Origin: Methanofollis fontis | Lineage (GTDB): Archaea > Halobacteriota > Methanomicrobia > Methanomicrobiales > Methanofollaceae | Length of the DNA stretch: 64,000 bases | NCBI RefSeq assembly: GCF_004297185.1 | Contig: NZ_PGCL01000001.1 | Span: 372,001-436,000 of the forward strand | Direction: 5' to 3' | Shown here: one piece after another, positions 1,987 to 34,917 of the stretch | How the letters are laid out: every line of letters begins with the position of its first letter | Numbering within the stretch: position 1 is the stretch's first letter | Notes under the pieces: generated by a model | Seen by the model: the letters and a program-made list of their open reading frames with translations, nothing else | Told to the model about the DNA's origin: nothing | Database searches by the model: none | Made by a program: the position numbers and the translations under genes

Positions 1987-3608
1987 GAGGGGGAAACGAC
2001 AGGCGCCCCGACCTCACTGTGCCGTTCCACCCCCCGCTCCGGGATCGGGGAGAGCTGCTCGACGACCAGAGAAACCTCACCGTCTGGAGCGAAGATGGGG
2101 ACACTCGTGCACCTCAGGTGCATATCCAGTTCAGGCACATACTTCTCGATCGTCTCGGGTTTCCCGCTTTTCAGGGCCATCTCTGTGGCGCAGATCTCAC
2201 ACGGTCGGGACCTGCCGATGAGGGAGTAGCAGGGATTTCCGGACGCTTCTTCGTGCGTCACCCCGAGGGCCTCATAGCCCGCTCGGTTGTAGCGGATGAT
2301 CCGCCGGTCCGGGCGCATGATCCCGATGATATCGGGCAGGGCATCGAACATCCATTCCAGGAGACCGTTTGCCTCGTGCAGGGTGCGTTCGCTGGCGCGG
2401 AGATCGGTGACGTCGTGGAGTGATTCGATGGCACCAACGATCGTGCCGTCATGACCCCAGAGGGGGGTCGCCAGTCCCCATAACACGCGTTCGCTCCCGT
2501 CACTGGCGGTGACCTCGATCTCCCCCAGGAGACTGTCCCCCTTCCACCGTGTGAAGGTGAAGCGGCCCGTTGCATCCTTCGGCGCCAGACCGATAACGAT
2601 CTCTGCCAGCACCGGGCGGACCGGACCATGCGGATGGATGAAGGCGTCGCATTCGGACTGCCCGATCACCGCTTCGGCCGGAACGCCGGTCAGTCTCTCC
2701 ATCTCCCCGTTCCAGAGCGTCGCCTTTCCTTCGGCATCGATGGCGAACGTGGGATCCGGGAGGAAATCGAGCACGTCCTTCAGGCGCTGCCTGGATGCGA
2801 CAGCCTCAATCTCGGCACGCTTGTGATCGGAGATGTCCCTGCCCACCGACTGGATCCGGACCAGGTTGCCCGCAGCGTCAAAGGAGGCGCGATCGGTCCA
2901 GCCATGCCAGCGCACCTCGCCTGAGGGCATGATCACCCGGTGATCGATATGGGCGACCGGATGATCCGGGGTGAGGGACTCAAAATGGGCATGGAGACGC
3001 TCCCGTTCATTGAGGGGGATCTCCGGGGCGAACCGGCGCCCCACCATCTCCTCCCCCGGCACCCCGAAATGTCTGCAGAAGGCCTCGTTGGCAAACAGGA
3101 TCACCCCATCGGGATCGAACCAGCAGATCATCTCGCTCTGGTCCTCGACGACGGTCCGGTAGCGCTCCTCGCTCTCCTCAAGAGCACGCGCCATCTGGCT
3201 TTTTTCAACGGCGTGCCTGATGATATTCTCCAGTTCGGCAAACTGCGGTTTCGGCGCCCCGCCCTTCTGGAGATAGTAGTCCGCCCCGGAGTTCAGCGCC
3301 TCGATCACCACCTCCTCCCGCCCTTTTCCGGTGAAGATGATGAAGGGAAGGGGCCCATAGAGTTTCCTCACCTCCCTGAGCAGGTCGATGCCGTCCATGC
3401 CCGGCATCTGGTAGTCGGAGACCACACCGTCGAAGGTGCCGGTGTCCAGGATAGAGAGCGCATCCTCCGCGGAGGGGGCAGGGGTAACGGCGATATTTCC
3501 TTTCCGTTCAAGGAATAATTTCCCTATTTCAAGGAGTGATGGCTCATCATCTACATATAAAACAGAAATTTGAGGTTTAATGGGATTAAGAAGCCTTCCC
3601 GAATCCAT
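1977..3608 (-). CDS. REC-PAS-PAS-PAS signalling protein without kinase domain
   Basis: 543 aa. The N-terminal receiver domain (about residues 12-130) has the acidic pair VDDE and the phospho-acceptor in VSDYQMPGMDG. Three PAS modules follow at about 145-260, 270-400 and 410-520; the last contains a Cys pair (CEICATE). No HisKA or HATPase motif is present, so this is a sensory response regulator rather than a kinase. The receiver resembles those of the 1392-aa kinase (10669-14847) and of the stand-alone REC protein at 39487, which suggests recent expansion of one REC family. A TATA box 28 nt upstream of the ATG suggests a leaderless mRNA. Confidence 0.85.
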   Translation of the reverse strand: MDSGRLLNPIKPQISVLYVDDEPSLLEIGKLFLERKGNIAVTPAPSAEDALSILDTGTFDGVVSDYQMPGMDGIDLLREVRKLYGPLPFIIFTGKGREEVVIEALNSGADYYLQKGGAPKPQFAELENIIRHAVEKSQMARALEESEERYRTVVEDQSEMICWFDPDGVILFANEAFCRHFGVPGEEMVGRRFAPEIPLNERERLHAHFESLTPDHPVAHIDHRVIMPSGEVRWHGWTDRASFDAAGNLVRIQSVGRDISDHKRAEIEAVASRQRLKDVLDFLPDPTFAIDAEGKATLWNGEMERLTGVPAEAVIGQSECDAFIHPHGPVRPVLAEIVIGLAPKDATGRFTFTRWKGDSLLGEIEVTASDGSERVLWGLATPLWGHDGTIVGAIESLHDVTDLRASERTLHEANGLLEWMFDALPDIIGIMRPDRRIIRYNRAGYEALGVTHEEASGNPCYSLIGRSRPCEICATEMALKSGKPETIEKYVPELDMHLRCTSVPIFAPDGEVSLVVEQLSPIPERGVERHSEVGAPVVSPSRR

Positions 3609-3631
3609 CAGGAGTCAACAGGTCAGCAAAA

Positions 3632-26914: not shown

Positions 26915-26943
26915 GCGCAAAATACCGTACCAATCCCATTTTT

Positions 26944-26964
26944 CGACTGGAAACAAAGGGGTCC
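26944..26964 (+). promoter_or_regulatory. ORB-like element in the hel308 leader
   Basis: CGACTGGAAACAAAGGGGTCC matches the origin boxes near 31.6 kb over ACTGGAAACAAAGGGG, with the left end degenerate. It sits 2 nt before the hel308 ATG, downstream of the predicted TATA box, where a bound Orc1 could block transcription. Confidence 0.5.
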
Positions 26965-26966
26965 AT

Positions 26967-29135
26967 ATGAAGGTAGCTGACCTCCCCATCCCCGAATCCC
27001 TCAAATCCGCATATGCCGACCGCGGGATCGCAGAACTCTACCCCCCCCAGGCGGCGTGTGTGGAGAGCGGGATCTTCGAGGGGAAGAACCTGCTCTGCGC
27101 CATCCCCACGGCGAGCGGCAAGACGATCATCGCCGAGATGGTGATGCACCGCCATGTGGCCGACGGCGGGAAGTGCCTGTATATTGTCCCCCTCAAGGCC
27201 CTCGCCACCGAGAAGTACGACGATTTTTCCGGGCGGGGGGTGCGCGTCGGGGTGGCGACCGGCGACCTCGACCGCCGGGATGCCTACCTGGGGCGAAACG
27301 ACATTATCGTCGCCACCTCGGAGAAGGTGGACTCCCTCCTGCGGAATGCCGCCCCCTGGCTCGGCGAGGTCAGCCTGCTCGTGGTGGACGAGTGCCACCT
27401 CATCGGTTCGCCGGACCGGGGTGCGACCCTGGAGATGGTGATCGCCAAACTCCTCTCAAAGAACCCGGGGATGCAGGTGATCGCCCTCTCGGCCACGGTC
27501 GGCAACCCCGGCGCCCTTGCCGGATGGCTGGACGCCGAACTGGTCACGAGCGAGTGGCGCCCGGTGGACCTCAGGGAGGGCGTCTTCTTCGACGGCACGA
27601 TCCATTTCACGGACAGCGAACGCGAGGTGCGCCGCTCCTCCCGCTACGACGACCTGAACCTGGTGCTCGACACCGTGGGGGAGGGGGGGCAGTGCCTGGT
27701 CTTCGTGAATTCCCGGCGCAACGCCGAGGCGTTTGCAAAGCGGGCGGCTGGAGGGCTGAAACTCTCCGAAGAGGCCCTTGACACCGCCGCCGACGCCATA
27801 GAGCGGGCGGCCACCACCGACCTCGGGCGCACCCTGGCCCTCTGCGTGCGAAAAGGGGCGGCCTTCCACCATGCGGGGCTCTCGGCCGCCGAACGCCGTA
27901 TCGTCGAGGACGGGTTCAGGAAGGGCTCGATCCGGGTGATCTCCTCCACCCCGACGCTTGCCGCCGGCCTGAACCTCCCGGCCCGCCGGGTGGTGATCCG
28001 CGACTATCTCCGTTTCGGGAACGGCGGCATGGCGCCGATACCGGTGGGGGAGTACAAGCAGATGGCCGGTCGGGCGGGCCGCCCCCACCTCGACCCCTAC
28101 GGCGAGGCGGTGCTCATCGCCAAGGGGGCGACCGCCTGCCAGGACCTCTACGAGAACTATATCGATGCACCGCCCGAGGAGATCACCTCGCAGTGCAACT
28201 CCGAGAACGCCCTGCGCTCACATGTGCTCTCCCTGGTCGCCACCGGTTTTGCCCGCACCCCCGCCGGAGTGATCGAGTTCATGGAGCGGACCTTCTATGC
28301 CTGGGAGCACCGCGGCCGCCGCTCCACGATCCACGAGACGATCGGGCGGGTGATCGACTGGCTCGCCGAGCGCGAGATGATCACCGCCCTCGGCGATCGG
28401 CTTGAGGCGACCGAGTACGGCGACCTGGTCTCCAGGCTCTATATCGACCCCAGGAGTGCGGAGGGGATCGTCGACGCCCTCGAGCGGGCCCCCGAGTTCT
28501 CGGGGTTCGGACTCCTGCAGGCGATCTGCGAGACCCCGGACATGCTCACCCTCTACCTGCGCAAAGGGGACGAGGAGATGATCTACCGCTTCCTCTCGGA
28601 GCATGAGGACGAACTCTGGACCGGCGCGCCCTACGGCACCGACGAACTCGAGCGCTTCTACTCAAGCGTGAAGACGGCGATGCTCCTCCAGAACTGGTCG
28701 GAGGAGGTGACCGAGGAGATGATCTGCGAGCGCTTCAATGTCGGGCCCGGCGACATCCATAACAAGGTCGAGACGGCGGTCTGGCTGGTCCACGCCGCCT
28801 CGCGTCTGGCCTCCCTGTTCAAGGGGGAGTTCAAACGCCCGATCGAGGAGGACGGGATCCGGATCCGCCACGGCATCAAGAAGGAGCTCCTCCCCCTCAT
28901 CAGGCTGAAGGGGATCGGACGGGTGCGGGCCCGCCGCCTCTTCAACGCCGGGATCGCCACCCCGGCGGCGATCCGGGAGGCGGGAACCGCCCGCCTCGCC
29001 CCGATCCTGGGCGAAAAAACGGCGGCATCGGTGCTCGCCCAGATCGGGGAGGGTGCGGACGAACGCACCGTCGAAGAGGAGACATCCAGCCGTCAGTTCT
29101 CTCTTTCCGCCTTCGGGGGTGAGGGGGATGAGTGA
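26967..29135 (+). CDS. hel308: ATP-dependent DNA helicase Hel308
   Basis: 722 aa, superfamily 2. Motif I is IPTASGKT, motif II DECH, motif III LSATVGNP and motif VI QMAGRAGRP; the N-terminal Q-motif region is LYPPQAACVESG. A winged-helix/ratchet region and a C-terminal helix-hairpin-helix part (LIRLKGIGRVRARRLFNAG) complete the Hel308 layout. The enzyme unwinds stalled replication forks 3'-5' in archaeal repair. It is coupled by overlap with the KEOPS gene cgi121 and lies about 4.7 kb from the orc1 gene. Confidence 0.95.
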   Translation: MKVADLPIPESLKSAYADRGIAELYPPQAACVESGIFEGKNLLCAIPTASGKTIIAEMVMHRHVADGGKCLYIVPLKALATEKYDDFSGRGVRVGVATGDLDRRDAYLGRNDIIVATSEKVDSLLRNAAPWLGEVSLLVVDECHLIGSPDRGATLEMVIAKLLSKNPGMQVIALSATVGNPGALAGWLDAELVTSEWRPVDLREGVFFDGTIHFTDSEREVRRSSRYDDLNLVLDTVGEGGQCLVFVNSRRNAEAFAKRAAGGLKLSEEALDTAADAIERAATTDLGRTLALCVRKGAAFHHAGLSAAERRIVEDGFRKGSIRVISSTPTLAAGLNLPARRVVIRDYLRFGNGGMAPIPVGEYKQMAGRAGRPHLDPYGEAVLIAKGATACQDLYENYIDAPPEEITSQCNSENALRSHVLSLVATGFARTPAGVIEFMERTFYAWEHRGRRSTIHETIGRVIDWLAEREMITALGDRLEATEYGDLVSRLYIDPRSAEGIVDALERAPEFSGFGLLQAICETPDMLTLYLRKGDEEMIYRFLSEHEDELWTGAPYGTDELERFYSSVKTAMLLQNWSEEVTEEMICERFNVGPGDIHNKVETAVWLVHAASRLASLFKGEFKRPIEEDGIRIRHGIKKELLPLIRLKGIGRVRARRLFNAGIATPAAIREAGTARLAPILGEKTAASVLAQIGEGADERTVEEETSSRQFSLSAFGGEGDE

Positions 29136-29634
29136 GTGCCGGGTCCTCCAGGCGGTTATCGAGATCCCCTCCCTCCCCGCCTTCCTCTCCTATGTCCGGC
29201 GGATCGGGGAGCGAAACAGGACGCACATCATCTTCCTCGACGCAGGAGCGCTGGCAGGACGGCGCCATGCCGAAAAAGCCGTCCGCCAAGCCGTCCGCTC
29301 CTGGCAGGAGGGGCGGGCGATCGCCAACTCCCTCGAGATGGAGGCCCTCCTCTATGCCGCCGGCACCCGCCAGTGCCGGGTGGCCGCCGAAATCGGGCTC
29401 CACGAGGGCGAGAACCATTGTTATGTCTGCCTCCACCCCCCCTCTGAGGAGGCGGAAGAAGCGCTCGGTCCCCTCCTCCGCTGGAGCACCGGGGACTGGG
29501 AGGAGATTGACGACGCCCGACGGCAGCGCCTGATGGAGCGCTACGGCATCACCGCCGAAGAGCTGGACGCCGCAGGCGGGCGAATCCTCCCCCTGGTCCT
29601 CGAACGCGTGGCCATGCTCGACGTGAACCGTTAG
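29128..29634 (+). CDS. cgi121: KEOPS complex subunit Cgi121
   Basis: 168 aa. The start at 29128 lies inside the hel308 end (8-nt overlap). The Cgi121 signature is NSLEMEALLYAAGTRQCRVA, followed by the GEN and C-terminal YGITAEELDAA regions. In KEOPS, which makes N6-threonylcarbamoyladenosine at tRNA position 37, Cgi121 binds the tRNA 3' end and the Bud32 kinase. Other KEOPS genes are not in the window. Coupling to hel308 occurs in several methanogens (from memory). Confidence 0.9.
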   Translation: MSECRVLQAVIEIPSLPAFLSYVRRIGERNRTHIIFLDAGALAGRRHAEKAVRQAVRSWQEGRAIANSLEMEALLYAAGTRQCRVAAEIGLHEGENHCYVCLHPPSEEAEEALGPLLRWSTGDWEEIDDARRQRLMERYGITAEELDAAGGRILPLVLERVAMLDVNR

Positions 29635-29642
29635 AGGGGCAG

Positions 29643-29650
29643 TTCTTTTT
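29643..29650 (+). terminator. T-tract terminator after cgi121
   Basis: A TTCTTTTTT run begins about 9 nt after the stop and precedes the repeat locus. Confidence 0.45.
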
Positions 29651-29689
29651 TGCGACGGCACGGCGGGATGCCGGTCGATATGATTGGAG

Positions 29690-30295
29690 AGGGGGGGGAG
29701 GACCCCTCCCGGTCAGGGGCGGATCGCCTTTCAACGAACAGCACGGGACGGGGGGTTCCACCCCCCGATACCCCCCGGTCAATGCGATAGGGGTGGGGGC
29801 GGTTATTGAGGGCGTTCTGAGATGAGCGTCCCCCAACTAACTCCGCGGTGCATGAGACATTCGGGAATACATGCCAAAATCCCCATCTGCACGATTCCCT
29901 CCTTCCCCCCTATCCCATTGACGGGGGTGGGTCCGGGAGGGGTCTCCCCTCGCGGTCAGGAGCAGACAGCGGTGACGGGGTGTTTCACCCCATGAATCCT
30001 CCGCACAATAGGGGCGGGGGCGGTACAGGAGGAACACCGGAAGGGAAAAACCGCCCCGGACAAAACCCTCCACCTCCTTCCACTGACGTCCTCTATCCCG
30101 CCCCCGTCGCAGGAGGGGGTCAGGGGGGAAATCGTGAAATTCTGAGAGGTGAACCGCCCCTGCAACAATATCCGGAACAAAAAAATTCAGCACAATTCTG
30201 CCTGCACCCCCTTCTTCACGATACCCTCAATCCCCCCTATCCCATCGAAGGGGGAAAGACCGGGAAGGGGCCGCCCCTCCCGGATCAAAAAACGC
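29690..30295. repeat. Intergenic repeat family, locus 3
   Basis: This fills the 661-bp gap between convergent cgi121 and moaB. Family blocks include GACCCCTCCCGGTCAGGGGC (from about 29700), AACAGCACGGGACGG, a GGGGGGTTCCACCCCCC hairpin near 29753, CCCCGGTCAATGCGATAGGG (29777) and CCCATTGACGGGGGTGGGTC (29913). Near 30040 AACACCGGAAGGGAAAAACC follows, and a last half-unit lies at 30225-30290. Units are more diverged than at locus 2. No gene is seen. Confidence 0.8.
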
Positions 30296-30799
30296 TCACC
30301 CCCGGGCATGGGAGAGGATATGTCGGAGTTCGGGGATGATGATATCTGCCATGGCCAGGCGGACCGCTCCGGTCGAACCCGGTATGCAGAAGATCGCCCG
30401 TCCGCCCGCCACACCTGCCGAGGCGCGGGAGAGGAGGGCCGAGGTCCCGATCTCCTCGTACGAGAGTCTCCTGAAGATCTCCCCGAAGCCGTCGATCCTT
30501 TTTTCATAGAAGGGTTCCACCGCCTCGATGGTGCAGTCGTCGGAGGTGAGACCGGTGCCGCCGTTCAGGATCACCGCGTCCGCGTCGGAGAGGGAGCAGA
30601 TCAGGGCAGCGCGGATCGCCACCTGATCATCCTTCACGATCCTGTAGAAACGCACCGGATATCCGGCACCCTCCAGGTGCTCCCGGATCGTTCGACCGCT
30701 CGTATCGGTCTCCTCGGTCCGCGTCGTGGAGACGGTGATCACCGCCACCCCGATGCTGATATCCCTGATGTGCTCTGTTTTCATGATTGCTTCACCCAT
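30296..30799 (-). CDS. moaB: MoaB/MogA-family molybdopterin-binding protein
   Basis: 167 aa (162 if the ATG at 30784 is used). It has the MoCF-binding fold motifs ITVSTTRTEETDTSG, LNGGTGLTSDDCTIEAVEP and CIPGSTGAVRLAM. MogA-type proteins adenylylate molybdopterin during molybdenum or tungsten cofactor synthesis, which methanogens need for formylmethanofuran and formate dehydrogenases. No other moa/mod gene is near. Whether it is an active adenylyltransferase or MoaB-like cannot be decided here. Confidence 0.9.
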   Translation of the reverse strand: MGEAIMKTEHIRDISIGVAVITVSTTRTEETDTSGRTIREHLEGAGYPVRFYRIVKDDQVAIRAALICSLSDADAVILNGGTGLTSDDCTIEAVEPFYEKRIDGFGEIFRRLSYEEIGTSALLSRASAGVAGGRAIFCIPGSTGAVRLAMADIIIPELRHILSHARG

Positions 30800-30936
30800 T
30801 TTCGATGGTCATACTGGATGATACCTCTTGTGGAGGTCGATCCCCGGAGGGAAAGGGGGCGTACCGGGAAACTGAAGAGGGGGAGGAAAGAGGTTCCTGA
30901 GGGGATGAGTGAAAGGGAGGTGAAACGCGATCCCCT

Positions 30937-30957
30937 ACCCCTTTGTTTCCACTGGAG
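30937..30957 (-). promoter_or_regulatory. Origin recognition box (ORB), inverted
   Basis: The reverse complement reads CTCCAGTGGAAACAAAGGGG plus T. This is the best match in the window to the archaeal ORB form (TTCCAGTGGAAAC followed by a G-run), and it points opposite to the two boxes near orc1. Confidence 0.75.
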
Positions 30958-31113
30958 CATATGGAGAAGGAGGGGTGGGGAGGAGGAGGGAGAAATGGCG
31001 GTGGATCAGGGAGGAAAAGATGGTGGTGGTTGGGAGGGTAGAAATCTGAATTTCTTTGTATTTGCTGTTTTTTTGTGATTGAGCCGTTTTTTGTCATGTT
31101 TCATGGATGGTGG

Positions 31114-31456
31114 GATCCCGGTGACGATCCCTGGATCTCCATACCCTGAGTGATCAGGACAGGGGTGGTGTTCCCTCTTATACCCTGATCATCCACCCCG
31201 ACAGGTCTCGAGATCGGTCAGGATCGATCGCGATCGGTCGGGATCTCACCAATGTGATCCTGATCTCCCGTGACTGGACAGGATCTCCGGGGTTTCTCGC
31301 GATCCACTGATCCGGATCCTGCCTGATCCCCCTTCCTCCGCGCTCCTGATCGATCCCGTGATCTCGATCCCCTCCAGATCCCATCGATCTGTCCCGCGAT
31401 CCGGATCGATCGGGATCACCTCCTCTCGCGATCTAGAAGATCTCTCTTTTGAGATC
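31114..31456. repeat. GATC-dense block in the origin
   Basis: Thirty GATC tetramers by eye in 343 bp, against about 1.3 expected by chance. Many occur in extended forms such as GGATCGATCGCGATCGG (31221-31237) and CCGGATCGATCGGGATC (31401-31417). The sites stop where the AT-rich stretch begins. Confidence 0.85.
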
Positions 31457-31515
31457 AGAGAAGATTTATAGTACAACAAGATAACCCTACAACAAGCTGT
31501 TTTACCAGTGTTATA

Positions 31516-31538
31516 GGAAAACAGGTCACCTGTTTTCC
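31516..31538. promoter_or_regulatory. Perfect palindrome in the origin
   Basis: The arms GGAAAACAGGT and ACCTGTTTTCC are separated by one base. It lies 4 nt before the ORB at 31543. It could bind a dimeric protein or extrude as a cruciform. Confidence 0.75.
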
Positions 31539-31542
31539 ACAG

Positions 31543-31566
31543 GTTCCACTCGAAATAAGGGGGTCC
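31543..31566 (+). promoter_or_regulatory. Origin recognition box (ORB), variant
   Basis: GTTCCACTCGAAATAAGGGG followed by GTCC. Its spacing between core and G-run matches the box at 31634, with two or three core substitutions. Confidence 0.6.
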
Positions 31567-31633
31567 GGGATCCGGTTCCAGATCTCGCCGTATCTGCCCT
31601 CTTTCCCACCCCTCATGATCACCTTTATAAGCA

Positions 31634-31657
31634 GTTTCCAATGGAAACAAAGGGGTT
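31634..31657 (+). promoter_or_regulatory. Origin recognition box (ORB) near orc1
   Basis: GTTTCCAATGGAAACAAAGG followed by GGTT. The core is a perfect TTTCCA/TGGAAA palindrome. It sits between TATA-like sequences CTTTATAA (31623) and GTTATATC (31655) upstream of orc1, so Orc1 may repress its own gene. Confidence 0.7.
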
Positions 31658-31713
31658 ATATCTCCAGACCCCCCACAGTGCATATCTTTCCCCTCCCGCG
31701 CGCGGCTGATACC

Positions 31714-32997
31714 ATGTCTGACAACGAAAATTCATCCCTCGGACTCTTCCAGAAGTACCTCTCGAACACCAGGATCTTCAAGAACCGGGAGGTCCTCCGT
31801 CACTCCTACCGTCCCCAGATCCTCCCCCATCGTCGTCCCCAGATTGACTCGATCGCATCGATCCTGGCACCGGCCCTCAAGAGCGAGACCCCGTCGAACA
31901 TTCTCATCTACGGCAAGACCGGCACCGGCAAGACCGCATGTGTCCGCTATGTCGGATCAGAGCTCGAGAAGGTCGGTGCCGGGATGGGGACCGGGTGCCG
32001 GGTGGTCCACCTCAACTGTGAGGTGATCGACACCCAGTACCGGGTGCTCGCCCAGATCGCCAAGGGTCTCGAAGATCTCGATGCCACCCCCTCCGACAAG
32101 GCCCGCGCCCATATCCCGATGACCGGGTGGCCCACCGATCAGGTGTATACCGAACTCAAAAACCAGCTCGACGCCACCGGGGGAGTGCTTGTCATCGTGC
32201 TCGACGAGATCGACAAACTCGTCAAGAAGAGCGGGGACGAGACCCTCTACAACCTCACCAGGATCAACTCCGACCTCAAGGCCTCCAAGGTCTCGATGAT
32301 CGGGATCTCAAACGACCTCCGGTTCACCGATTTTCTCGACCCCCGCGTGCTCTCCTCCCTCTCTGAAGAGGAGATCGTCTTCCCGCCCTACAACGCCCCG
32401 CAGCTCTGCGATATCCTGACCCAGCGCGCCCAGATGGCGTTCGTGGAGGGGAGTCTGGAGGAGGGGGTGATCCCGCTCTGCGCCGCCTTCGCCGCCCAGG
32501 AGCACGGCGACGCCCGCCGCGCCCTGGACCTGCTGCGGGTCTCCGGCGAACTCGCCGACCGCGAGAACGCCGAGCGCGTCGGGGAGAAGCACGTCAGGAT
32601 GGCCCTCGACAAGATCGAGGCCGACTCGATGATCGAGTGCATCTCCACCCTGCCGACCCAGAGCAAGGTGGTGCTCTACTCGATGCTGCTCCTCGAGGAG
32701 ATGGACAAGAAGATCTTCACCTCCGGTGAGGTGACCCGGGTCTACCGCGAAGTCTCCAAGATCGTGGACATCGACCCCCTCACGCACCGGCGGATCACCG
32801 ACCTCATCTCCGAACTGAACATGCTCGGGGTGATCAACACCCGCGTCGTCTCCAAGGGGCGTTACGGAAGGACAAAAGAGATGTGGTTTGACACCAACAC
32901 GAAGAAGATACAGGACGTACTCGCAAAGGACCCGCGGCTCTCCGAGGACCGGCTTGCCCATGTCGACCTCAACCGCCTGCGGGCCTCGTTCCGGTGA
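31714..32997 (+). CDS. cdc6: Orc1/Cdc6 replication initiator
   Basis: 427 aa from the ATG at 31714; the longer frame would read through an ORB. An AAA+ domain has Walker A GKTGTGKT, Walker B VLDEIDKL and sensor 1 IGISND; an arginine-rich region (EHGDARRALDLL) precedes the C-terminal winged helix. It binds ORBs and loads MCM helicase at the origin. It heads a probable operon with an Lrp-type regulator and an aminotransferase, whose genes follow with gaps of only a few bases. Confidence 0.96.
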   Translation: MSDNENSSLGLFQKYLSNTRIFKNREVLRHSYRPQILPHRRPQIDSIASILAPALKSETPSNILIYGKTGTGKTACVRYVGSELEKVGAGMGTGCRVVHLNCEVIDTQYRVLAQIAKGLEDLDATPSDKARAHIPMTGWPTDQVYTELKNQLDATGGVLVIVLDEIDKLVKKSGDETLYNLTRINSDLKASKVSMIGISNDLRFTDFLDPRVLSSLSEEEIVFPPYNAPQLCDILTQRAQMAFVEGSLEEGVIPLCAAFAAQEHGDARRALDLLRVSGELADRENAERVGEKHVRMALDKIEADSMIECISTLPTQSKVVLYSMLLLEEMDKKIFTSGEVTRVYREVSKIVDIDPLTHRRITDLISELNMLGVINTRVVSKGRYGRTKEMWFDTNTKKIQDVLAKDPRLSEDRLAHVDLNRLRASFR

Positions 32998-33002
32998 TCA
33001 GC

Positions 33003-33494
33003 ATGGATGAAAAGGACCACTTGATCCTCCACCTCCTGGAGGAAAACAGCCGCATACCCCTCGAAGACCTCGCCACGATGGTCGAGATCGACCTCGACGA
33101 GGCGAAGGCGCGGATCAAAACCCTGGAAGAATCGAAGATCATCAGAAAATACGGCGCCGTCGTCGACTGGGAGCGCGCCGGGGACGGCGACGTCACCTCG
33201 ATCATCGCCCTGAAGGTTTCCCCCGAGCGTGACGCCGGCTACGACAAGATCGCCGAGAGGATCGCCCGCTTCGCCGAGGTGAAGACTCTCCGACTGGTCT
33301 CTGGCCGCTACGACTTCATCCTGCTGGTGAAGGGAAGGACGATGCAGGAGATCGCCCGCTTCGTCTCCGAGCACATCGCGCCGATGGACGGGATCCGGGA
33401 GACCACCACCCAGTTCGTGCTGAAGACCTACAAGGAGAACGGCACGCCCTACGACGAGCGCGAGGCCTCTGAACGTCTCCCCTACTCATTCTGA
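33003..33494 (+). CDS. Lrp/AsnC-family transcriptional regulator
   Basis: 163 aa from the ATG at 33003; a GTG at 32994 overlaps the cdc6 stop (GTGA) and is an alternative. The N-terminal helix-turn-helix (ILHLLEENSRIPLEDLATMV) is followed by the RAM ligand-binding domain (KTLRLVSGRYDFILLVKG). Such proteins sense amino acids and form octamers. The aminotransferase gene begins 8 nt after its stop, and the pair is frequent in euryarchaea, so it probably regulates or senses that enzyme's product. Confidence 0.93.
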   Translation: MDEKDHLILHLLEENSRIPLEDLATMVEIDLDEAKARIKTLEESKIIRKYGAVVDWERAGDGDVTSIIALKVSPERDAGYDKIAERIARFAEVKTLRLVSGRYDFILLVKGRTMQEIARFVSEHIAPMDGIRETTTQFVLKTYKENGTPYDEREASERLPYSF

Positions 33495-33502
33495 GGTGAC
33501 CG

Positions 33503-34669
33503 ATGAGGAATATTGTCTCAGAACGGGCGCGGCTGATCCCCCCCTCCGGGATCAGGAAATATTTCGACCTCTGCATCGGCATGCAGGACGTCATCTCCCT
33601 GGGCGTCGGCGAACCCGACTATGCCACCCCCTGGAAGATCTGCGAGGCCGGGATCTACTCGATCGAGCAGGGGATCACCTCCTATACCTCGAACCGGGGC
33701 TACGCCCCGCTCTGCGAGGCGCTCTCCGCCGATCTTGCACACCGCTATGGGCTGCGCTATTCCCCGGACGCCGAGATTATCATCACCTCCGGCGTCTCCG
33801 AGGCCGCAGACATCGCCATCCGGGCGGTCGTTGACCCCGGCGATGAGGTGCTGGTCATCGACCCCGGCTACGTGAGCTACGCCCCCTGTGTCACGCTTGC
33901 CGGCGGTGTGCCGGTCCCCCTCCCCTGCCGCGCCGACGATCGATTCAAGATCACCGCCGAGGGGCTTGCCGAACGGGTGACCGAACGGACAAAGGCGGTG
34001 ATCCTGAACTTCCCCAACAACCCCACCGGCGGGGTGATGGGGCGGGACGACTACCGGGAGATCGCCGACATCATCGTGGACAACGACCTGGTGCTCATCT
34101 CCGACGAGGTGTATTCGGAGCTTACCTATGGGGGAACGCACTGCTCCCCCGGGACAATGGACGACCTGCGCGAACGCACGATCGTGCTGAACGGTTTTTC
34201 CAAGGCCTACGCGATGACCGGGTGGCGTATCGGCTATCTCTGCGCCCCGAAAGAGATCTGCGACGCCGCACTGAAGATCCACCAGTACGTGATGCTCTGC
34301 GCCCCGGTGATGGGGCAGCTTGCCGCTCTCGCCGCCCTGCGCGAGGGCGAAGAGGACAAGGACGCCATGGTGCGGGAGTACCGCCTCCGCCGCAACCTCT
34401 TCGTCGAGGGGCTCAACCGCATCGGGCTCACCTGCCACCTGCCCGAGGGGGCGTTCTACGCCTTCCCCTCAGTCGAGTCCACCGGGCTCTCTGACGGCGA
34501 GTTCGCCGAGCGCCTCCTGGTGGAGCAGAAGGTCGCCGTCGTGCCGGGCAGCGTCTTCGGCGAGGGCGGAACGGGCCACCTCCGCTGCGCATATGCAGTC
34601 GGACGGGAGGATCTCTCGGTTGCGATCGAGCGTATGGGCGCCTTCATCGAGGGCCTGGACCGCCGATAA
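33503..34669 (+). CDS. PLP-dependent aminotransferase, class I/II
   Basis: 388 aa, fold-type I. LNFPNNPTGG binds substrate/PLP, SDEVYSEL holds the cofactor-binding Asp/Tyr, and LNGFSKAYAMTGWRIGY carries the Schiff-base lysine (SK) and the phosphate-binding Arg. It resembles archaeal aspartate or aromatic aminotransferases; the specificity is not readable. A GAGGTGA ribosome binding site precedes the ATG. Last gene of the cdc6-lrp-aminotransferase group, followed by a T-tract. Confidence 0.92.
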   Translation: MRNIVSERARLIPPSGIRKYFDLCIGMQDVISLGVGEPDYATPWKICEAGIYSIEQGITSYTSNRGYAPLCEALSADLAHRYGLRYSPDAEIIITSGVSEAADIAIRAVVDPGDEVLVIDPGYVSYAPCVTLAGGVPVPLPCRADDRFKITAEGLAERVTERTKAVILNFPNNPTGGVMGRDDYREIADIIVDNDLVLISDEVYSELTYGGTHCSPGTMDDLRERTIVLNGFSKAYAMTGWRIGYLCAPKEICDAALKIHQYVMLCAPVMGQLAALAALREGEEDKDAMVREYRLRRNLFVEGLNRIGLTCHLPEGAFYAFPSVESTGLSDGEFAERLLVEQKVAVVPGSVFGEGGTGHLRCAYAVGREDLSVAIERMGAFIEGLDRR

Positions 34670-34677
34670 TTTTTTTG
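34670..34677 (+). terminator. T-tract terminator of cdc6 operon
   Basis: A run of seven or more T directly follows the aminotransferase stop. Confidence 0.55.
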
Positions 34678-34726
34678 ATCGTGTTCCATCAGGGTATGCC
34701 CCCTGTCTGACAAACGGCAGTGGAAT

Positions 34727-34747
34727 AACCCCTTGATTTCCACTGGA
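34727..34747 (-). promoter_or_regulatory. ORB-like element downstream of the cdc6 operon
   Basis: AACCCCTTGATTTCCACTGG then AG. The reverse complement has CTCCAGTGGAAAT and an intact GGGG. An AT-rich palindrome (CATAATATTATG, 34760-34771) follows within 15 bp. Confidence 0.6.
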
Positions 34748-34917
34748 GATCTGCATAAACATAATATTATGCAATTGGTCATATTGTTCTATTCTAACTC
34801 AGATTCCCCCTCCGATGCACCGGCACACCCCCGGAAAGGGCGTGGCTGGCCGCGGCAGATTTCTGCGGATCTGGATCTGCAGGCCCCCCCTCGCGGAGCG
34901 CCGGTCTCCTCCACGAA

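Follow-up and report, generated by a model that had tools for sequence, protein, structure and literature searches.

The orc1/cdc6 locus and its ORB elements

The window, a 64,000-bp stretch of the 2.36-Mb genome of Methanofollis fontis (G000:C1:372001-436000), carries an orc1/cdc6 initiator gene at positions 31714-32997 (+). The gene encodes a 427-aa protein with Pfam AAA+, Cdc6_lid and Cdc6_C domains and is complete as judged by NF001625 (604.7 bits; cut-off 501), as an earlier, sequence-only reading of this DNA had proposed. It is followed by genes for an Lrp/AsnC-type regulator and then an aminotransferase. On its upstream side lie an archaeal helicase gene with helicase domain 4 (26967-29135, +), a small ORF ending at position 29634, and a MoaB/Mog-like gene (30296-30799, -). 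An imperfect 78-nt direct repeat (29872-29949 and 30199-30276; 76%) is located between the small ORF and the MoaB/Mog-like gene, and had no match in Rfam. The 914 bp between the end of the MoaB/Mog-like gene (30799) and orc1 (31714) contain no recognisable gene, which agrees with the large gene-free region described earlier. The mechanical ORFs in this gap matched no Pfam family, and the possibility that it contains protein genes or known RNAs was rejected, as none were found.

Three ORB-type elements are found in the gap. ORB1 (CTCCAGTGGAAACAAAGGGG; 30938-30957, -) is the far, inverted box and matches the consensus used at 19 of 20 positions, while the direct boxes ORB2 (TTCCACTCGAAATAAGGGGG; 31544-31563, +) and ORB3 (TTCCAATGGAAACAAAGGGG; 31636-31655, +) match at 16 and 19 of 20 positions, respectively. 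ORB2 and ORB3 are conserved, and ORB1 is kept across the genus and most of the order Methanomicrobiales. The same layout, with one inverted far box and two direct boxes at approximately -215 and -99 of orc1, was seen in dozens of Methanomicrobiales genomes. When the ORB pattern was searched with up to three mismatches, it gave six matches in the whole genome, five of which fall inside 26942-34748 of the window, a span within 8 kb. A reversed control pattern gave none, and the ORBs therefore exceed chance. In the complete chromosome of a relative (G011), the four best ORB matches (19/20) are likewise all found inside 14 kb around orc1.

Two of the elements near orc1 had been missed in the sequence-only reading. 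An outer ORB-like element (TTCGACTGGAAACAAAGGGG; 26942-26961, +), with one mismatch to the searched pattern, lies 4.8 kb upstream of orc1, and a comparable box occurs approximately 10.8 kb upstream of orc1 in G011. A second outer ORB (pattern match; 34729-34748, -) lies 3.0 kb downstream of the orc1 start. In most Methanomicrobiaceae checked, an outer ORB lies 3.0 to 3.3 kb downstream of where orc1 starts, and Methanoculleus often has another in the opposite orientation, approximately 215 bp beyond the first. The conserved downstream element recalls the downstream ORB cluster of Haloarcula hispanica that has been proposed to restrain oriC2, and it occupies the position expected for a restraining cluster of this kind.

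The AT-rich core that had been reported is present, albeit modest. It consists of two short blocks (approximately 31026-31090 and 31426-31525) of 58-70% AT, of which only the second is conserved in Methanofollis. Within the latter, the segment at 31460-31520 (GATTTATAGTAC...ACAACAAGCTGTTTT) has near-invariant columns in 11 genomes, and an AT-rich block is found at the matching position in other genera. This segment is likely to be the duplex-unwinding element, a role that is inferred. A palindrome conserved in the genus (GGAAAACAGGT-C-ACCTGTTTTCC; 31517-31539) directly precedes ORB2. Each genus seems to have its own version of an inverted repeat just upstream of ORB2 (31493-31541 in the window): AAGCTGTTTT/AAAACAG in Methanofollis, TGATACA/TGTATCA in Methanoculleus, and a AAAACAGTT-like repeat in a Methanolinea. 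Further downstream, a TATA-like element (TTTATAAG; 31624-31631, +) belongs to the presumed orc1 promoter, a role again inferred, and TTTATA or TATA is conserved here in the genus alignment. ORB3 overlaps this presumed core promoter. Autoregulation of orc1 through ORB3 is plausible because the box starts only 5 bp after the TATA-like element; it has not been demonstrated, and there are no binding data.

We are highly confident that the locus is an Orc1-type replication origin, because the ORB layout is conserved across the order, the ORBs of the genome are concentrated here, and the AT-rich block beside the direct ORBs is conserved. The earlier claim that the origin is active goes beyond these data, since there are no marker-frequency or binding measurements. 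GC skew in the complete chromosome of G011 is weak: its trend-corrected minimum is located 47 kb from the orc1 locus and its raw minimum elsewhere, and the skew is thus only mild support.

A GATC array between the ORB elements

The sequence-only reading was also incomplete in a second respect, as it overlooked an array of GATC tetramers that fills the space between the inverted and the direct ORBs. The array (31114-31456) comprises 30 GATC sites in 343 bp. Its best 300-bp stretch contains 26 sites, against a maximum of 10 per 300 bp elsewhere in the window. Among the triple-GATC matches listed for M. fontis, which cover the first 0.71 Mb of contig 1, 14 fall in the 0.3-kb array, and never more than a few occur together elsewhere. 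In the complete chromosome of G011, the array is the unique GATC maximum, with 30 sites per 300 bp compared to 13 for the next-highest stretch and a mean of 3.5. As a yardstick, E. coli oriC has 11 GATC sites in 232 bp, and the surrounding 10 kb reach at most 14 per 300 bp.

A cluster is present at the equivalent place in all 11 Methanofollis genomes with readable DNA upstream of orc1 (M. fontis and ten others), without exception in the interval bounded by the inverted ORB on one side and the direct ones on the other. Only 456 bp could be read upstream of orc1 in G010, and the corresponding region of G008 includes a run of N. The clusters contain from 13 to more than 60 GATC sites over approximately 190 to 620 bp, and the densest 300 bp in each of the ten further genomes contain 13 to 39. 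Wherever the scored cluster reaches the AT-rich block, it ends at -250 to -271 of the orc1 start. GATC counts exceeded those of dinucleotide-preserving shuffles in all 11 genomes (z 3.8-10.2), whereas at 30 loci from other genera z remained below 3.1 in 27, and the highest value (4.5) belonged to a locus with only 12 sites. No GATC cluster was found at the orthologous origins of any other genus examined, nor at 20 loci of orc paralogues. A search for a different word enriched in the inter-ORB regions of other genera likewise returned nothing comparable. Clusters of words recognised by orphan methyltransferases have been described at the origins of other organisms, namely GATC in Gammaproteobacteria, CTCGAG in Nocardia and TTAA in Arthrobacter, together with clusters of CTAG that precede orc1/cdc6 in Haloarchaea (Blow et al., 2016; PMC4752239, Fig. 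6D). Among open-licence papers, none was found that describes GATC clusters at the origin of a methanogen.

The 522 clustered GATC sites of the genus use all 16 NGATCN contexts and are mostly spaced 6-8 bp apart, which indicates that the unit being kept is the tetramer itself. The presence of all 16 contexts rules out a longer recognition motif around GATC. Even or helical spacing was also rejected, as an excess of even spacings was seen in the window only, and the genus-wide counts were 250 even and 244 odd. Tandem units are recognisable in the arrays of G001, G010 and G011; repeat units differ among species, and GATC is kept in all. In the closely related pair G002/G005 (90% identity, unambiguous alignment), GATC retention was 0.93, compared to 0.71 for other tetramers of 50% GC. 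The corresponding values were 0.74 and 0.63 for G004/G011, and 0.83 and 0.23 for G001/G003. Gapped alignment of GATC-rich DNA may flatter retention in distant pairs by matching GATC to GATC, and the weight of this comparison therefore rests on the close pairs. Maintenance of the array by selection on the GATC tetramer, as inferred from these alignments, forms part of the best explanation set out below and is graded jointly with it.

Two alternating methyltransferases with probable GATC specificity

M. fontis encodes a Dam-family enzyme (G000:C1:269396-270316) 134 kb from orc1, which scores 260.8 bits against TIGR00571 (cut-off 114.85). Its nearest solved structure is DpnM (2dpm; E 1.6e-49). 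Orthologues are found in G011 and G004, approximately 23-25 kb from orc1. Eight other Methanofollis genomes lack this enzyme and have an orphan DpnA/CcrM-type enzyme, encoded between a SIS-domain gene and a ferredoxin-thioredoxin-reductase-like gene (gene names by our reading). One or other enzyme is thus present in 11 of 12 Methanofollis genomes, the exception being G009, where the gene is broken. G002 has an additional divergent, non-orthologous D12 enzyme. No endonuclease gene was recognised beside the Dam copies or the DpnA-like loci that were read.

The DpnA-like enzyme shares 48% identity with the second methyltransferase encoded by a cassette on pSRQ700 of Lactococcus lactis, as well as the signature GKQM...W...K-SEK..GKHPTQKP. 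In the cassette, this second methyltransferase is flanked by a Dam-like enzyme on one side and a type II endonuclease on the other. The Dam-type enzyme shares 37% identity with its own pSRQ700 homologue. This DpnII-type cassette, which we take to be the GATC-specific LlaDCHI (LlaII) system, thus encodes homologues of both Methanofollis methyltransferase types side by side with an endonuclease, an arrangement that points to one shared target. Unlike pSRQ700, the archaeal loci that were read have no recognised endonuclease gene, and a given genome carries just one of the two types. Homology makes GATC specificity probable for the DpnA-like enzyme. It remains unproven because the best solved relative is CcrM, which recognises GANTC, although in sequence the enzyme is nearer to that of pSRQ700.

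Both enzymes were sought in 55 Methanomicrobiales genomes: 33 have the Dam type, 17 the DpnA-like type, none has both and five have neither (Fisher p 4e-10, uncorrected for shared ancestry). They look like two non-orthologous enzymes with one job, and their mutual exclusivity across the order suggests that GATC methylation is a maintained housekeeping function in Methanomicrobiales. A Dam-like orphan group (HG3) has previously been assigned GATC m6A activity by homology in 15 of 19 Methanomicrobiales (PMC10609329). Among relatives, the presence of the cluster does not track that of the enzymes, which also occur in genera without it; the enzyme thus does not require the array. A strict correlation between Dam and the cluster was rejected, as most Methanofollis have the DpnA-like enzyme instead of Dam, and Methanoculleus has Dam but no cluster.

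G009 is the only possible case in the genus of an array without an enzyme, and it is an uncertain one. Its DpnA-like gene (G009:C13, locus L295, approximately 3239-3624, -) carries an internal deletion that removes residues ~106-231 and leaves the neighbouring genes unchanged; in G011, the gene has been lost altogether from the equivalent context. No Dam gene was found in G009, a MAG that is 88% complete. Its array has kept 13 GATC sites despite the broken gene. Of 20 sites common to G004 and G011, nine are kept in G009, seven are substituted and four are gapped. Loss at these shared sites is similar in M. fontis, which nevertheless has 30 sites in total. Erosion of the G009 array after loss of the enzyme is therefore suggestive only, resting on a single case, an incomplete assembly and a comparable loss in M. 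fontis.

A possible methylation control of re-initiation

The explanation that we favour, with moderate confidence, is that of an Orc1 origin at which GATC methylation controls re-initiation. The ORBs, the array with its conservation and its uniqueness, and the methyltransferase genes are observed; origin activity, methylation of the array, a delay due to hemimethylation and a reader of that state are all inferred. Orc1 would bind all three ORBs of the gap, the inverted one at 30938 as well as the direct ones at 31544 and 31636, and open the AT-rich block at 31460-31520. Through ORB3 in the orc1 promoter, it would probably also repress its own gene. The array would be methylated by the orphan GATC adenine methyltransferase, which is of the Dam type in M. 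fontis and DpnA-like in most other species of the genus. Before firing, the array would be fully methylated, and passage of the fork would leave approximately 30 sites hemimethylated at once. With so many adjacent sites, the hemimethylated state would be strong and slow to erase. It could mark a freshly fired origin and delay re-initiation until remethylation, whether through an unidentified reader, through altered Orc1/MCM loading, or through an effect on DNA melting. A search with E. coli SeqA (171 residues) found no credible homologue in the complete relative G011.

Alternatively, the array could be a platform for a protein that binds GATC regardless of methylation, with a role in anchoring, segregation or nucleoid organisation, while the methyltransferases serve another purpose. 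Such a division would suit an order-wide distribution of the enzymes and a genus-specific array, as well as the position of the array beside, not inside, the ORBs and the AT-rich block. However, sites that lie only 4-8 bp apart, in every flanking context, are more easily understood as copies of a short methylation word than as the footprint of a protein, and GATC is precisely what the orphan enzyme retained in nearly all genomes is expected to methylate. We know of no protein that binds GATC regardless of methylation in a platform role of this kind, and consider this reading unlikely. It is improbable that the array has no function and merely reflects slippage and tandem duplication in DNA free of genes. 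The tandem units of G001, G010 and G011 and the variable array length (approximately 190 to 620 bp) are what slippage would leave behind, but the units differ between species and all keep GATC, which also outlasts other tetramers and exceeds its shuffled expectation in 11 of 11 genomes, and the array is always found at one locus.

We give equally little credence to an action of the array on orc1 transcription, as a methylation-sensitive promoter or upstream control region, instead of on the initiation of replication itself. Bacterial Dam sites can work through promoters, and the array lies on the promoter side, 258-600 bp upstream of orc1. Nonetheless, approximately 170 bp separate its end from the TATA-like element further downstream, ORBs enclose it, and the promoter-proximal segment has only three GATC sites. 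It is very improbable that the ORBs and orc1 belong to an origin that is inactive or minor, and that replication starts elsewhere, despite the several orc1 paralogues (five matches in M. fontis) and the weak GC skew of G011. In Thermococcus kodakarensis, Cdc6 and the presumed origin are reportedly dispensable for replication (PMC5663688), and this counts in favour of a minor origin. Against it, none of the 20 paralogue loci checked has an ORB match or a GATC cluster, this arrangement of ORBs is shared throughout the order, and in G011 the corrected skew minimum, for all the weakness of the skew and a raw minimum elsewhere, is 47 kb away.

GATC-methylation control at an Orc1 origin would most likely be convergent with the oriC/Dam system of E. 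coli, methylation and its effect on initiation being inferred. In both cases GATC is clustered at the origin, and M. fontis and two relatives share with E. coli an orphan Dam-family enzyme. The Methanofollis origin, however, is of the Orc1/ORB and not the DnaA type, contains 26 GATC sites per 300 bp in M. fontis and up to 39 in the genus compared to 14 in E. coli, and has a DpnA-like methyltransferase in most species; no SeqA homologue was found in G011. Like other archaeal Orc1/Cdc6-ORB origins (PMC4010727), it lies directly upstream of the initiator gene and has an AT-rich block flanked by ORBs, but its inter-ORB space is filled by the GATC array. The closest likeness is to the haloarchaeal CTAG clusters (PMC4752239), in which a short palindromic methyltransferase word is also densely repeated in non-coding DNA directly upstream of orc1/cdc6, in the presence of a conserved orphan methyltransferase. 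The word is GATC (expected m6A) in Methanofollis and CTAG (m4C) in haloarchaea, and the enzyme families differ. In addition, the Methanofollis array is limited to one genus even though the enzymes are found across the order, there is alternation between two unrelated types of enzyme, and only one orc locus per genome bears the array. In contrast to the pattern of Blow et al. (2016), enzyme presence outside Methanofollis does not predict a cluster. Clusters of such words at origins are themselves known; what sets Methanofollis apart is the E. coli word at an Orc1 origin, its far higher density, its restriction to a single genus and the two alternating enzyme types.

A more far-reaching proposal is that a licensing switch gated by methylation evolved independently in Methanofollis, at an origin of the Orc1 type. 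Saturation of the inter-ORB DNA with GATC would allow the hemimethylation that accompanies replication to mark an origin that has just fired, and the switch would have been kept across a swap of two non-orthologous GATC methyltransferases and be read by a factor other than SeqA. We put this forward tentatively, as somewhat less than an even prospect. Little is understood of how archaea keep an origin from firing again in the same cell cycle. To our knowledge, bacteria are the only organisms in which control of origins by methylation has been shown; for haloarchaea it has been suggested. At the Methanofollis origin, GATC is two to three times as dense as at oriC of E. coli, and the species concerned have an orphan methyltransferase of the GATC type; the combination of a dense array with such an enzyme makes the question of archaeal re-initiation directly testable.
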